From NCBI RefSeq assembly GCF_000710615.1, contig NZ_JDTH01000001.1, positions 310,001 through 374,000 of the forward strand: a stretch of DNA of 64,000 nucleotides. The letters are read 5' to 3'. This document shows, one piece after another, positions 16,317 through 28,568 of this stretch. This DNA comes from Haladaptatus cibarius D43 (GTDB taxonomy: Archaea > Halobacteriota > Halobacteria > Halobacteriales > Haladaptataceae). The stretch's first letter is position 1, and each line of letters opens with the position of its first letter. Made by a program: the position numbers and the translations under genes. The notes beneath the pieces were generated by a model. The model made no database searches and was not told the DNA's origin. It worked only from the letters and a program-made list of their open reading frames with translations.

Positions 16317-16400
16317 GCGCGGGTGTACGCGCGGGGGGTGGAAAAAGGGAGATGATACTTATGTTATTCTTAACAAAGGCGTTCGAGGGTGTCGGAAGCG

Positions 16401-16943
16401 ATGATGGGAAATCATTCGAGACGCCGGTTTCTCGAACTGGCGGGTACCGGCACCGCCGTCGCCCTCGCAGGGTGTTCTGGCGGGCCGAGTGGAACCGCTA
16501 CGACGGACGCTACCAGCACGGATGCCGGAACCGAAACCAGTCAGGAAACCACAGAAACGGCCACCGAGACGACCGAAGAAGCCGAACCAGAAGTATCCAC
16601 GATGAGTACCGTCTTCCATTTCAGCAGTGGCGAATCGCACCAAAACCACGCAGTCGCAAACGTTGCGAACCTCGTAAACGACGGGACGACCGAGGTCGAA
16701 ACCGCCGAACTGATCGCCAACGGACAGGGTATCCGACTCGTGACCGTGGATTCCTCCGTTGCGGACAAGGTAAAATCGCTGGTACAGCAGGGAGTGAAAT
16801 TCAAAGCCTGCCAGAACAGCATGAACGCGTTCAACTTCTCTGAAGACGACCTGATAGACGGTGTCGAAACCGTTCCAGCAGGCGTCGGCGAACTCACAAA
16901 ACTACAAGCAAAAGAGAACTACGCCTACATCAAGACGCCTTAG
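16401..16943 (+). CDS. Tat-exported lipoprotein with DsrE-like domain
   Basis: About 180 residues. The N-terminus has a twin-arginine signal and lipobox (SRRRFLELAGTG, then VALAGC), so it is exported folded and lipid-anchored on the outside. A Thr/Glu-rich linker (residues about 30-65) precedes a DsrE/DsrF-like fold with the conserved cysteine in GVKFKACQNSMNAF. DsrE proteins carry sulfur or act in thiol chemistry; an extracellular one may act in redox or sulfur relay, which is inference. ATG 16401 or 16404 is likely; a GTG at 16389 is possible. It overlaps the htpX 3' end by 4 bp. Confidence 0.82.
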   Translation: MMGNHSRRRFLELAGTGTAVALAGCSGGPSGTATTDATSTDAGTETSQETTETATETTEEAEPEVSTMSTVFHFSSGESHQNHAVANVANLVNDGTTEVETAELIANGQGIRLVTVDSSVADKVKSLVQQGVKFKACQNSMNAFNFSEDDLIDGVETVPAGVGELTKLQAKENYAYIKTP

Positions 16944-21096: not shown

Positions 21097-21186
21097 ATGG
21101 AAAACCTTCGACAAAAACTGATTTCGCTGTTTTTCGTCGCGCTAATGCTGAGTTCGGCGGTCGCCTACACCGCTACTCTGCTGTGA
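21097..21186 (+). CDS. Putative 29-residue single-span microprotein
   Basis: A very short gene encoding MENLRQKLISLFFVALMLSS followed by AVAYTATLL. It is one membrane helix behind a charged N-terminus, resembling either a small membrane peptide or an uncleaved signal sequence. It has a TATA-like box at the leaderless distance and a proper ATG and TGA. Its last 14 bp overlap the 3' end of the convergent amidase gene. No homologue comes to mind. Confidence 0.45.
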   Translation: MENLRQKLISLFFVALMLSSAVAYTATLL

Positions 21187-22243
21187 GCCAGTAGTCGGCA
21201 GACCATCCAGTCTGACTGCCGTCGTAGTTCACCTTCCACCAGCGATAGCCACCGATATCGACCGGGCCGTCTGTGACGACTCCTGCAGTTCCTTCTGGAA
21301 CGACGCCGAGTCGTTCCCCGCTCGGTTCTGCTCTGACACTGAGGTCGGAAGTCGTCTCCACTGACAATCCAGCATCGAATCGCGCGTAGAGTACGTCGTC
21401 CGCAGCGACCCACCCGGGAGTACCGTTGAAGTCGAGTTTGTACCACTGGATTCCCTTGCGGACGAGAACGTTTCCGGTGGCTGTGCCGACCGCTCCCGAG
21501 GGAACCGCCATCGTTTTCGCGTGTTCGTCCGGGCCGTGATAAACCGCGCCATCCGAGAGGACGACGGCGTTTTCGCCGGATTCCACGTCCCAGCGTCGGA
21601 TGAACCCCTCGTAGCGACCCCAGTTCCACAGCGAGCCGGGGTCGTAGTGGCCGCTGATGCCGCCCGGTTTCGTGCAGTCGTTCGGGTTCGGAATTTGGTT
21701 GTGGCCGATAACGCCACCCTCGCCGTCTTTCGCGTCGCAGGGCGCGATGTCGTAGCGACGGACGCGCTTCGGGAAGTCGAACTCGGTCGCAGACCATCGG
21801 ACGATTTTCGCGGAGGCCTCGTACAGTTCGTCGGTGTACTCCGTCTCGTTGACCCACCCGGAGTGTTCGATGCCGAGCGAATGCTGGTTGTACGGCCAGT
21901 TTCCGCCGTGCCAGCCGATGTCCTCTTCGGCCAACATCTGCGTGAGGTCGCCCGTTCCGTGGTCTGCGACGTAGTGCGTGCTCGCGTTTGCATCCGGATT
22001 TTGGAACCAATCGACCGTCCAGTCTGCTTCGCCCTGCGCGACGTGAACGATAAACCACCGAATGTCGAGGTCGGACTCGCGTTCTGCCTCGCTGTAGTTC
22101 GATTCGTCCGCCGGTGCCCACGCCATCTCGGGCTTCGCCGCTGGAAGTCGCATTGCTTTCTTTGCACTCGTCTGGCCGGAAATCGCGCCTGCACCCGCGA
22201 CAGCGCCAATCGTCTTGAGAATCGTCCGTCTTGTTTCGTGCAT
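21173..22243 (-). CDS. Tat-exported N-acetylmuramoyl-L-alanine amidase-like protein with SH3 repeats
   Basis: A 356-residue secreted protein. The signal is Tat-like (ETRRTILKTIGAVAGAGAIS). Residues about 45-220 form an Amidase_2/PGRP domain with the zinc-site elements FIVHVAQG, LGIEHSGW and SGHYDPGSLWNW. Two SH3b-like repeats follow, each with a VLVRKG/LSVRAEP strand and a GWVAADDVLY/GWSADYWL end. In bacteria this set cleaves and binds murein. Haloarchaea lack murein, so it may attack bacterial competitors or another amide-linked polymer. A TATA-like box lies at 22272-22280. Confidence 0.9.
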   Translation of the reverse strand: MHETRRTILKTIGAVAGAGAISGQTSAKKAMRLPAAKPEMAWAPADESNYSEAERESDLDIRWFIVHVAQGEADWTVDWFQNPDANASTHYVADHGTGDLTQMLAEEDIGWHGGNWPYNQHSLGIEHSGWVNETEYTDELYEASAKIVRWSATEFDFPKRVRRYDIAPCDAKDGEGGVIGHNQIPNPNDCTKPGGISGHYDPGSLWNWGRYEGFIRRWDVESGENAVVLSDGAVYHGPDEHAKTMAVPSGAVGTATGNVLVRKGIQWYKLDFNGTPGWVAADDVLYARFDAGLSVETTSDLSVRAEPSGERLGVVPEGTAGVVTDGPVDIGGYRWWKVNYDGSQTGWSADYWLTAE

Positions 22244-26132: not shown

Positions 26133-28568
26133 TCAGTACGATTCGCTGAGATACTGCGAGTCGCTGTCGTCGTAGACGAACACGGTGTCGCCGCCGTTGT
26201 TCCAGACTGCGTTGCCGGTGCGACCCCAGTAGAGGTCGGTCTGGGTGTCCGTTCCGGTTCCGGTGTGGAGCGTCACCTGCTCGCCTGCACCGAGGGTGAA
26301 ACCGCTCGGGAAGGTGTACGTCTTCTCGACTTCGTCCTGTACGTACCACCCCGTCAAGTCGAGGTCGCCGCTGCCGGTGTTCTCGAAGACGACGTACTCG
26401 TCGTTGAGGTTGCTTCCGTCGTGGCCCGCCGCGTCCTCGTGAATTTCGGCAACGATGAGTTCGCCACTGCCGCCGTCGCCGTCGTCGCCACCGTCGCCCC
26501 CACCGAGGGAACCGTCGTAAGCTTCGAAGAGCGGGAACGAGGTGTCGAAGACCGTGGTCGTCGGAATCGCAGAATCGCTGTTGACGTTGTTCGAACTGTC
26601 CGTCACTTGGTCGCCGTTGAGTCGCAGGTCGGAACCGAGTCCGGACGCGAGGTCGTTCAGGTTCGTGCGGGCACCGGATGGGGCCGTGCCAGCACCGACG
26701 AGGACGACCGCGCCGCCGTCCGCCGCGAACGAGCAGAGGGCATCGATTTCGGCCTGCGTGAACGAATCGGTTGGCGTCGTCACGACGACTGCTCGCCAGC
26801 GCGAGAGGTCGAACGTGTCGAGGCTGTTCGACTGCTCGAAGGAGATGCCGACGCCTTCGAGGAATCGCTGGTAGTAGGCGGCGTCGTCGTTCGACAGGGC
26901 GTAGCCCGCGGCGAACTGCCCGTGGCCACCGTCGATGAGCACGTCGCCAGTCGCGTCGGTGAGGTAGTCGATGAGGTTCGTCAGGAAGACGAAGTTCTCG
27001 TAGCCGGCGGTATCGACCGCGAAGCCTTCGCCGCTCTCGTAGGTCTCGTCGATGAGCGGGCTTCCGAGCATGGCGACGTTCGCGGACTCGTCAACCGCCG
27101 CGAGCGGGATGTCGCCGTTGTAGGAGTAGCCGCCGTTCTGGGTTGCCGTGCTTTCGGCGTACACCGGAACGCGGGAGTCCGCGACTGCGCCCGTCGAAGT
27201 CACGACGCTTGCCGTCGTCGGGAAGAACAGGTCGTCAACCGCGCGGTTGCGGATTTCGGTCGTGTTCTCGGGGTCGCTCTCGCCCCAGACGTTGGTGCCG
27301 TTCGAGCGTGCGGTGTCCTCCGCGCTCCAGAAACTGTCGTGGTAGCCGAATCCGGAGCCATAGACGCGGGCAAAGCCGTCGCGGACTGCGTTGCGGTTGT
27401 AGAAGTCGTCGCGGGTGCCACTGCCGTCCGCGTCGTAGTGAATGTAGCCGAGGACGCGCCCGAAGGCGTCACGGACTGGCTCTTCCGAATCGAAGGACAA
27501 CTCGACCGTCTTGCCACTGAGTTCGCCCTGTGCGTAGGTCGTCGCGTTCTCGCCCCACGTTCCGAGGTAGTCGAGCGACTCGATTCCTTCCCACTCCTGT
27601 ACGCGCTCGGCGGAACTGCTCGCGGGTTTCTCGGGCGTATCGATACCGAGGATGCGGATGCTTTCGGTCGAACCGTCCGAGAACTCCACCGTGGCGGTGT
27701 CGCCGTCGGTGACCTCGGTAACATCGACGGTGTACGTTTTGTCCTTCTCAAGACCGAGTCCGGTTCGGTCGGCGAAGTAGTCGAACGACGTGTTGAACTC
27801 GTCGGTGAGCGGTGCGAAATCCGCGCCGCCGTTGTTCGTCGTGTCGAGGACTTCGTCGTCGTTGAACCGGAACGAAAGGCCGAGATAGCTCGCAATGTCG
27901 TTCATCTTGGCCGTCTCGTCGTAGTCGCTGTAGTCGGACTGGCCGTGGAGGAAGACGGTTCCACCGGAGGCGACGAAACTGCTGAGGTCGCTTAGTTCGC
28001 TGTTGGTGAACGACTGCGTCGGCGACGTGATGACGACTGCATCGGCGGAACCAAGGTTCCCCGTGAGATTGCTCGTTCCGGTAACCGTGTAGCCGTTCTC
28101 TTCCGCGTAGCTCTCGAAGTTCGAGAACTTCCCGAGGGAGTAGTACTGGCCGTGGCCATTGTCCCAGAGGACGGTGCCGGAACCGCCGAGTTCGTCGTCC
28201 CACGTGTTCAGGACGAACTCCTCGTTGCCATTCTGCCAGTTGGTACTGTCCTCAACAAGGGGCGAACCGAAGGCGACGACGTTCGACTCGGACGTGACGA
28301 CCGGAATCGGCGTCCCGCTACTGTAGATGGTAGCGTCGCCGTTTCCGTCGCCGTCGTTGTTGGTAGCGGTGTCTTCCGCCCAGACGGCGATGACTGAACT
28401 GTCGGTCAGTTCGCCGCCGCTGGTGTTGAGAAAGCTCGACGAAGAGTGGAATTCGAGTGGCGAAATCTGGCCTGAGGCGGCCCGAACCTCGGAGCTGAGA
28501 TGAGCCGTGATTGGTGCTGATGCTGTGGCCGTTGCGAGTGCGGACAGGAATGTTCGTCGTCGCATCAC
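26133..28568 (-). CDS. Tat-exported thermonuclease with two GATase-like domains and a lamin-tail domain
   Basis: An 811-residue secreted protein. Signal MMRRRTFLSALATATASAP, cleavage near residue 31. Residues about 85-250 and 485-665 are two copies of a GldG/IFT52-like (DUF4350-type) domain, each with a DNGHGQ/DGGHGQ and a VVITSPTQSFT/VVVTTPTDSFT segment. Between them (275-435) is a staphylococcal-nuclease domain with the full active site (R305, D310, E313 in IRILGIDTPE and R371 in FGRVLGY). A Gly/Asp linker leads to a lamin-tail domain (702-808). A TATA-like box lies about 25 bp upstream. Likely role: extracellular DNA degradation or uptake. Confidence 0.9.
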   Translation of the reverse strand: MMRRRTFLSALATATASAPITAHLSSEVRAASGQISPLEFHSSSSFLNTSGGELTDSSVIAVWAEDTATNNDGDGNGDATIYSSGTPIPVVTSESNVVAFGSPLVEDSTNWQNGNEEFVLNTWDDELGGSGTVLWDNGHGQYYSLGKFSNFESYAEENGYTVTGTSNLTGNLGSADAVVITSPTQSFTNSELSDLSSFVASGGTVFLHGQSDYSDYDETAKMNDIASYLGLSFRFNDDEVLDTTNNGGADFAPLTDEFNTSFDYFADRTGLGLEKDKTYTVDVTEVTDGDTATVEFSDGSTESIRILGIDTPEKPASSSAERVQEWEGIESLDYLGTWGENATTYAQGELSGKTVELSFDSEEPVRDAFGRVLGYIHYDADGSGTRDDFYNRNAVRDGFARVYGSGFGYHDSFWSAEDTARSNGTNVWGESDPENTTEIRNRAVDDLFFPTTASVVTSTGAVADSRVPVYAESTATQNGGYSYNGDIPLAAVDESANVAMLGSPLIDETYESGEGFAVDTAGYENFVFLTNLIDYLTDATGDVLIDGGHGQFAAGYALSNDDAAYYQRFLEGVGISFEQSNSLDTFDLSRWRAVVVTTPTDSFTQAEIDALCSFAADGGAVVLVGAGTAPSGARTNLNDLASGLGSDLRLNGDQVTDSSNNVNSDSAIPTTTVFDTSFPLFEAYDGSLGGGDGGDDGDGGSGELIVAEIHEDAAGHDGSNLNDEYVVFENTGSGDLDLTGWYVQDEVEKTYTFPSGFTLGAGEQVTLHTGTGTDTQTDLYWGRTGNAVWNNGGDTVFVYDDSDSQYLSESY

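Follow-up and report, generated by a model that had tools for sequence, protein, structure and literature searches.

A putative exported murein amidase of Haladaptatus cibarius and the link of its family to a haloarchaeal locus for muropeptide catabolism

Results

The window analysed in this study, a stretch of 64,000 nucleotides from the genome of Haladaptatus cibarius D43, carries an open reading frame at 21173..22243 (-), a position given in an earlier note on this DNA and confirmed here. The frame starts with ATG and encodes a protein of 356 aa, beginning MHETRRTILKTIGAVAGAGAISG, in which a Tat-type signal precedes a catalytic Amidase_2 domain and tandem SH3 repeats, as assigned from the reading frame, Pfam and the dN/dS values given below. 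Pfam analysis pairs the catalytic domain PF01510 (E = 1.8e-20, 74 bits against a cut-off of 26) with the SH3_3 family PF08239 (1e-7, 32.4 bits against a cut-off of 27), the latter in two stretches. The Amidase_2 domain covers residues 37-216 (21596..22135, -), a range based on Pfam and on structural comparison of the predicted model with the PDB entries 6srt and 2y28 (VIA-align). The first SH3-like repeat, residues 225-287 (21383..21571, -), was recognised from the strands of the model and from its match, in a profile search, to the SH3 region of the endolysin 4krt, and the second, residues 294-356 (21176..21364, -), passes the Pfam SH3_3 threshold and shares 44% identity with the SH3 region of a GH18 protein. 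With a GC content of 61% and a GC3 of 73% the gene resembles its neighbours in composition, and the mature protein is acidic (52 D+E against 24 K+R), as haloarchaeal proteins usually are.

Residues 1-30 (22154..22243, -) form the Tat-type N-terminus, in which TRRTILKTIG is followed by a hydrophobic stretch and no lipobox cysteine occurs; this part is disordered in the model. Arg5 and Arg6 are invariant in 13/13 aligned sequences, which together with the hydrophobic stretch favours the Tat signal assumed in the earlier note, whereas the Pfam TAT model reached only 13.6 bits and stayed under its cut-off of 22.7. Elsewhere, the window encodes a Tat-type protein of 811 aa (26133-28568, -), in which a staphylococcal-nuclease domain occurs alongside two DUF4350 stretches and one lamin tail domain, and a DsrE-domain Tat-type lipoprotein (16389-16943, +).

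The active site was examined in an alignment of the window domain, 94 relatives and AmpD of E. coli. The alignment pairs H67 of the window protein with H34 of AmpD, E126 with E116, H181 with H154 and D201 with D164, the AmpD residues being those that we take to fill the metal-site and catalytic roles. By this correspondence, H67 (codon at 22043..22045, -), H181 (21701..21703, -) and D201 (21641..21643, -, in HYDPG) are the predicted first, second and third zinc ligands and E126 (21866..21868, -) the predicted catalytic glutamate, while His199 stands opposite Lys162 of AmpD. All 72 haloarchaeal rows keep H67, E126 and H181; at position 201, 49 of them have D and 23 have C. The Pfam alignment ends at residue 190, and the third ligand lies beyond it, past an insertion, in SGHYDPGS. 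A placement of this ligand at DCTKPG was rejected, as the alignment sets it at D201 after the insertion. Together with the PF01510 score, the aligned residues point to an intact Amidase_2 zinc site, as had been proposed beforehand. Among the haloarchaeal proteins with cysteine as third ligand, a subgroup (L112-L114, L117-L120, L122, L123) carries an N-terminal MCLxC before the twin arginines.

An AlphaFold2 model calculated from an 8-sequence alignment (pLDDT 77.2, pTM 0.82, with pLDDT below 50 for residues 1-30 and 110-115) shows the amidase fold, followed by a pair of SH3-like barrels, the C-terminal part consisting of strands throughout. The two SH3b-like repeats described as intact in the earlier note were recovered both as SH3_3 stretches and as barrels. 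VIA-align superimposed the model on LysCS (6srt; Z 15.6, 147 aligned residues, rmsd 2.8) and AmpD (2y28; Z 15.3, 149 aligned residues, rmsd 2.8), and PlyL, XlyA and PGRPs also match it over residues 36-219, the PGRPs with Z values of 11-12. A phmmer search of the PDB chains with the single sequence returned 0 matches at 0.01, and a profile search returned nine, with values up to 0.1.

Within the genus, the gene lies between a TRM5/TYW2-type methyltransferase gene (trm5) and a helicase gene in 6/9 Haladaptatus genomes, and the genomes G003, G004 and G007 have both flanking genes with no amidase between them. Identity to the orthologues amounts to 92% in H. litoreus, 87% in H. pallidirubidus, 79% in G008, 78-79% in H. 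halobius and 73% in G001. Against five orthologues, dN/dS was 0.14-0.20 over the gene as a whole, 0.07-0.16 in its catalytic part and 0.19-0.25 in its C-terminal part; the first two ranges indicate that the gene is maintained and is no chance reading frame. Its dS lies within the range of its neighbours. A tree built from five genes of the neighbourhood, with midpoint rooting only, shows carriers of the gene in both deep branches of the genus, which takes a minimum of two changes, and ancestral presence with two losses is one simple reading of this distribution. In the H. halobius orthologue (G002, L007), codons 24 and 32 of the signal part are stops, and the catalytic frame is open. Based on the site, the neighbour tree, dN/dS and dS, we concluded that the gene has been passed on together with its neighbours and is maintained, with some losses.

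Of 391 genomes sampled from the class, 50, belonging to 20 of 86 genera, carry Amidase_2, and the H. cibarius genome itself has four such genes. A scan of 73 haloarchaeal proteins recovered Amidase_2 in all 73, SH3_3 in 22, PG_binding_1 and PG_binding_3 in six each and Glucosaminidase in three; SH3_3, the PG_binding domains and Glucosaminidase are murein-directed partner domains. Long haloarchaeal Amidase_2 proteins of 677-838 aa (L078, L090, L091) also occur. A phylogeny with bacterial and archaeal amidases, suggested as a check in the earlier note, comprised 95 rows after removal of one duplicate and without 15 further haloarchaeal Amidase_2 places, and unites the 72 haloarchaeal rows in a single group (98/98) adjoining amidases of Streptomyces and Nonomuraea. 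As the non-archaeal rows consist of 15 bacterial sequences from plasmid records and eight phage or viral sequences, five of them from viral contigs, the actinobacterial neighbourhood may shift with wider sampling. The tree, which does not fix the donor, would fit a single transfer from Actinomycetota with later spread and duplication.

A viral origin or carriage of the gene was considered and rejected on the basis of searches among phages and viral contigs. Twelve PHROG families match the window protein, 11 of which fall in the lysis category, and the phage matches, at about 30%, are to endolysins from phages of Cutibacterium, Streptomyces and Syntrophomonadaceae. Among viral contigs, a single-sequence search found 0 relatives and a profile search five distant ones, and no halovirus match appeared in these searches.

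Outside the window, the same genome holds a locus for muropeptide catabolism (G000:C11:22000-55000; L146, L147, L170). It encodes AnmK (E = 2.9e-99; NCBIfam equivalog score 458.7 against a cut-off of 387), NamZ with both its N and C domains matched, a GH3-type NagZ with KHFPGHGDT (equivalog score 238.7 against a cut-off of 207), a GH18 protein that has DGIDIDWE as well as a Tat-type N-terminus, and an oligopeptide-type ABC transporter whose SBP_bac_5 binding protein has a Tat-type lipoprotein N-terminus. Further genes encode a GNAT protein, a HAD hydrolase, a serine hydrolase, a creatininase-family protein, an IclR regulator and a member of a family termed F0 here. The serine hydrolase has a beta-lactamase fold by Pfam, which makes it at most a candidate for an AmiE-type amidase. 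The F0 protein (L146:17618-18790, +; 391 aa) is without a Pfam or NCBIfam match; it is named "putative glycoside hydrolase" in two RefSeq records and has distant relatives on Rhizobium plasmids (about 28%).

NamZ occurs in 16 of the 391 haloarchaeal genomes, and AnmK in 15, every one of them among those 16. Within stretches of up to 20 kb, F0 was found in 15/16 genomes, GH3 and IclR in 12/16 each and the serine hydrolase in 9/16. Seven more NamZ loci from the family of the H. cibarius genome (G003, G005, G007, G008, G020, G023, G026) all contain F0, NamZ, GH3, the serine hydrolase and IclR, and six of the seven contain AnmK. All nine Haladaptatus genomes, H. cibarius included, have NamZ, in two pieces in G001. 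Altogether 23 loci were laid out, with the NamZ loci of G001, G002 and G006 left out; gene order was taken from simple ORF picking in stretches of up to 20 kb, where absences carry little weight. A MurQ etherase above the TIGR00274 cut-off was found in 0/16 NamZ genomes, so the usual muramic-acid route is incomplete and the pathway differs from the known one; it may itself be incomplete. NamZ and NagZ of H. cibarius are devoid of an obvious signal peptide, and uptake of the sugars must therefore be assumed.

Amidase_2 and NamZ occur together in 11 of the 391 genomes against 2.05 expected (odds ratio 19, Fisher p = 1.4e-7) and, by genus, Amidase_2 is found in 8/12 NamZ genera (p = 6.5e-4), the genus count being the one way in which these statistics take kinship into account. 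The similarly frequent cellulase GH5 (54/391), used as a control, shows no link to NamZ (4/16, 2.2 expected, p = 0.17), and it meets Amidase_2 in nine genomes (6.9 expected, p = 0.24). The association is also physical. In G017, G023 and G026, which belong to a single genus, a Tat-type Amidase_2 gene lies inside the NamZ-AnmK locus; in G115, from another family, such a gene stands immediately 5' of AnmK. An Amidase_2 gene is thus in or beside the locus in 4/23 NamZ loci laid out; the RefSeq annotation of Halorussus aquaticus agrees with this gene order. In G017 the amidase occupies the slot that the serine hydrolase holds in G000, G015 and G309. The locus-associated enzymes are of the short Tat-type kind, as is a paralogue of the window gene on contig C2 of H. 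cibarius, and the tandem SH3 part of the window protein (residues 241-349) recurs in a GH18 protein inside the G020 locus (44% over 116 aa). Several observations count against a tight link: the window gene itself lies outside the NamZ locus, 39 of the 50 Amidase_2 genomes lack NamZ, only four of the 23 loci have an Amidase_2 gene in or beside them, no MurQ above its cut-off was found in the 16 NamZ genomes, and G029 and G376, which hold the nearest relatives of the window protein outside the genus, gave no NamZ match at 86% and 91% completeness.

Discussion

H. cibarius thus has an intact amidase gene with conserved metal-site residues and a model with the corresponding fold, its genome holds a catabolic locus, and the Amidase_2 family is tied to this locus both statistically and physically. 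The earlier note had described a secreted murein amidase in an organism devoid of murein, a description that sequence and fold both support; at these two levels, a putative murein amidase exported by an archaeon is well supported, and its substrate is very probably murein. The window protein would act as a zinc-dependent N-acetylmuramoyl-L-alanine amidase, exported in the folded state by the Tat route and anchored on bacterial walls by its two SH3 domains, where it would detach the stem peptide from the MurNAc of bacterial murein, outside the cell. An oligopeptide-type ABC transporter might import the freed peptides and muropeptides, which a cytoplasmic set of NagZ, NamZ, AnmK and serine hydrolase, encoded elsewhere in the same genome, would then degrade. 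In this chain we infer the enzyme activity, secretion, product uptake and the service of the window paralogue itself in the pathway.

We consider feeding on bacterial walls, of dead or living cells, to be probably the main use of the enzyme, because the Amidase_2 family is tied to NamZ, AnmK and NagZ by co-occurrence and gene order; feeding is favoured over killing, and the two uses are compatible. The earlier note had offered both a weapon and a scavenger and had stressed antagonism: both options stand, but the emphasis moves towards feeding through the link to NamZ, AnmK and NagZ. A secreted bacteriolysin that kills or lyses rival halophilic bacteria, and serves nutrition only in second place or not at all, is the less probable account, to which we would give a minor yet appreciable chance. 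It agrees with the Tat-type signal and wall-binding module, with a fold near phage endolysins and with the predominance of lysis families among the PHROG matches, and the loss of the gene from the site in 3/9 congeners, together with the broken signal region in a fourth, resembles weapon turnover; two other haloarchaeal murein hydrolases, moreover, kill Halalkalibacterium halodurans (PMC12352652). The genomic association, however, is with catabolism of the products, and the gene is kept with its neighbours by vertical inheritance within the genus. Anatomy alone cannot separate a weapon from a feeding enzyme, because an archaeon can do without immunity to an enzyme of this sort.

Other accounts appear far less probable. 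Since the substrates of Amidase_2 enzymes are not readable from sequence alone and other surface polymers exist in haloarchaea, the protein might cleave a different amide-linked glycopeptide, for example in an archaeal surface polymer, instead of bacterial murein; this we regard as very unlikely, as the residues common to murein amidases are fully conserved, relatives carry PG_binding and Glucosaminidase domains, and relatives are located among NamZ, NagZ and AnmK. There is as little to recommend a PGRP-like sensor or binding protein that recognises murein without hydrolysing it: relatives are named "peptidoglycan recognition family protein" in RefSeq and PGRP folds match the model, but the third ligand, which is lost in non-hydrolytic PGRPs, is kept as D or C in every one of the 72 haloarchaeal rows. 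A transferred bacterial gene drifting to loss, with no present use, would explain the empty slot in three congeners and the two early stops in H. halobius; the low dN/dS of the catalytic part over five orthologue pairs makes this equally improbable.

Returning to feeding, a bolder and more tentative proposal, which we think possible without counting on it, is that bacterial walls serve as food for Haladaptatus and for several further haloarchaeal genera, which would then have a complete murein-feeding trait in place of stray lytic enzymes. Secreted amidases of actinobacterial ancestry, that of the window included, would open the wall together with GH18, the oligopeptide transporter would bring the pieces in, and a mobile, often plasmid-borne locus would degrade them in the cytoplasm by a muramic acid route without MurQ, in which F0 may supply the missing step.

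According to the main text of Strock and colleagues (PMC12352652), modular peptidoglycan hydrolases occur in 175 of 3,706 archaeal genomes, two hydrolases of Halogranum salarium kill Halalkalibacterium halodurans, and genomes with modular peptidoglycan hydrolases are richer in Opp-type uptake genes. The idea of a haloarchaeal murein hydrolase as a weapon was thus already published in 2025, and the Discussion of that paper leaves weapon versus scavenging as an open question. In its main text a term search found no mention of Haladaptatus, Amidase_2, NamZ or AnmK; its counting rule, as given there, requires a wall-binding domain, and single-domain Amidase_2 proteins of the kind found at the locus would therefore go uncounted. 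Our survey of the open literature, with most subscription journals outside its scope, found no report of a haloarchaeal murein-feeding trait, of NamZ in archaea, of NamZ treated together with AmiE and NagZ or of the active-site residues of S. aureus AmiA, and nothing relevant by title on AnmK in archaea, on haloarchaeal N-acetylmuramic acid catabolism or on N-acetylmuramoyl-L-alanine amidase in haloarchaea. The lytic enzyme alone is of a known type, and the new part would be the coupling of the amidase to an archaeal muropeptide-catabolism locus. This locus makes the question of whether archaea fight or eat with their murein hydrolases experimentally approachable, and if the feeding reading is true, haloarchaea would recycle bacterial walls in brines directly.

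The closest bacterial relatives found are Amidase_2 proteins of Streptomyces and Nonomuraea, annotated as "peptidoglycan recognition family protein", with at best 35-40% identity over the domain to the window protein and at best 45-50% to its single-domain paralogue. Two bacterial relatives (L070, L073) share the Tat-type N-terminus, whereas the short Streptomyces and Nonomuraea proteins (191-196 aa by annotation or ORF) lack the tandem SH3 repeats, and the cysteines C169 and C190 in the insertion of the window protein are missing in the 15 bacterial rows. With AmpD and AmiD of E. coli the window protein has the fold and the metal-site residues in common; it differs from AmpD, which is cytoplasmic, in having His199 in place of Lys162. 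Woldo and Danwoldo of Halogranum salarium are described as haloarchaeal, modular, Tat-secreted murein hydrolases (PMC12352652), a type to which the window protein, with its putative Tat signal, would belong, but these two rely on M23 or glucosaminidase catalysis and PG_binding_1 modules, and it is for them that killing has been shown. The phiSM101 endolysin 4krt of a Clostridium perfringens phage has a similar C-terminal tandem SH3 part, joined to a different catalytic domain, the enzyme being named an autolytic lysozyme.

At the level of the pathway, the murein-sugar gene set of Bacillus subtilis comprises NamZ, NagZ, AmiE and MurQ. In the archaeal locus, as in bacterial murein-sugar sets, genes for NamZ, NagZ and a serine hydrolase of beta-lactamase fold are neighbours, but the locus has an oligopeptide ABC transporter and AnmK where these sets have a PTS and MurQ, and adds F0 in 15/16 genomes.
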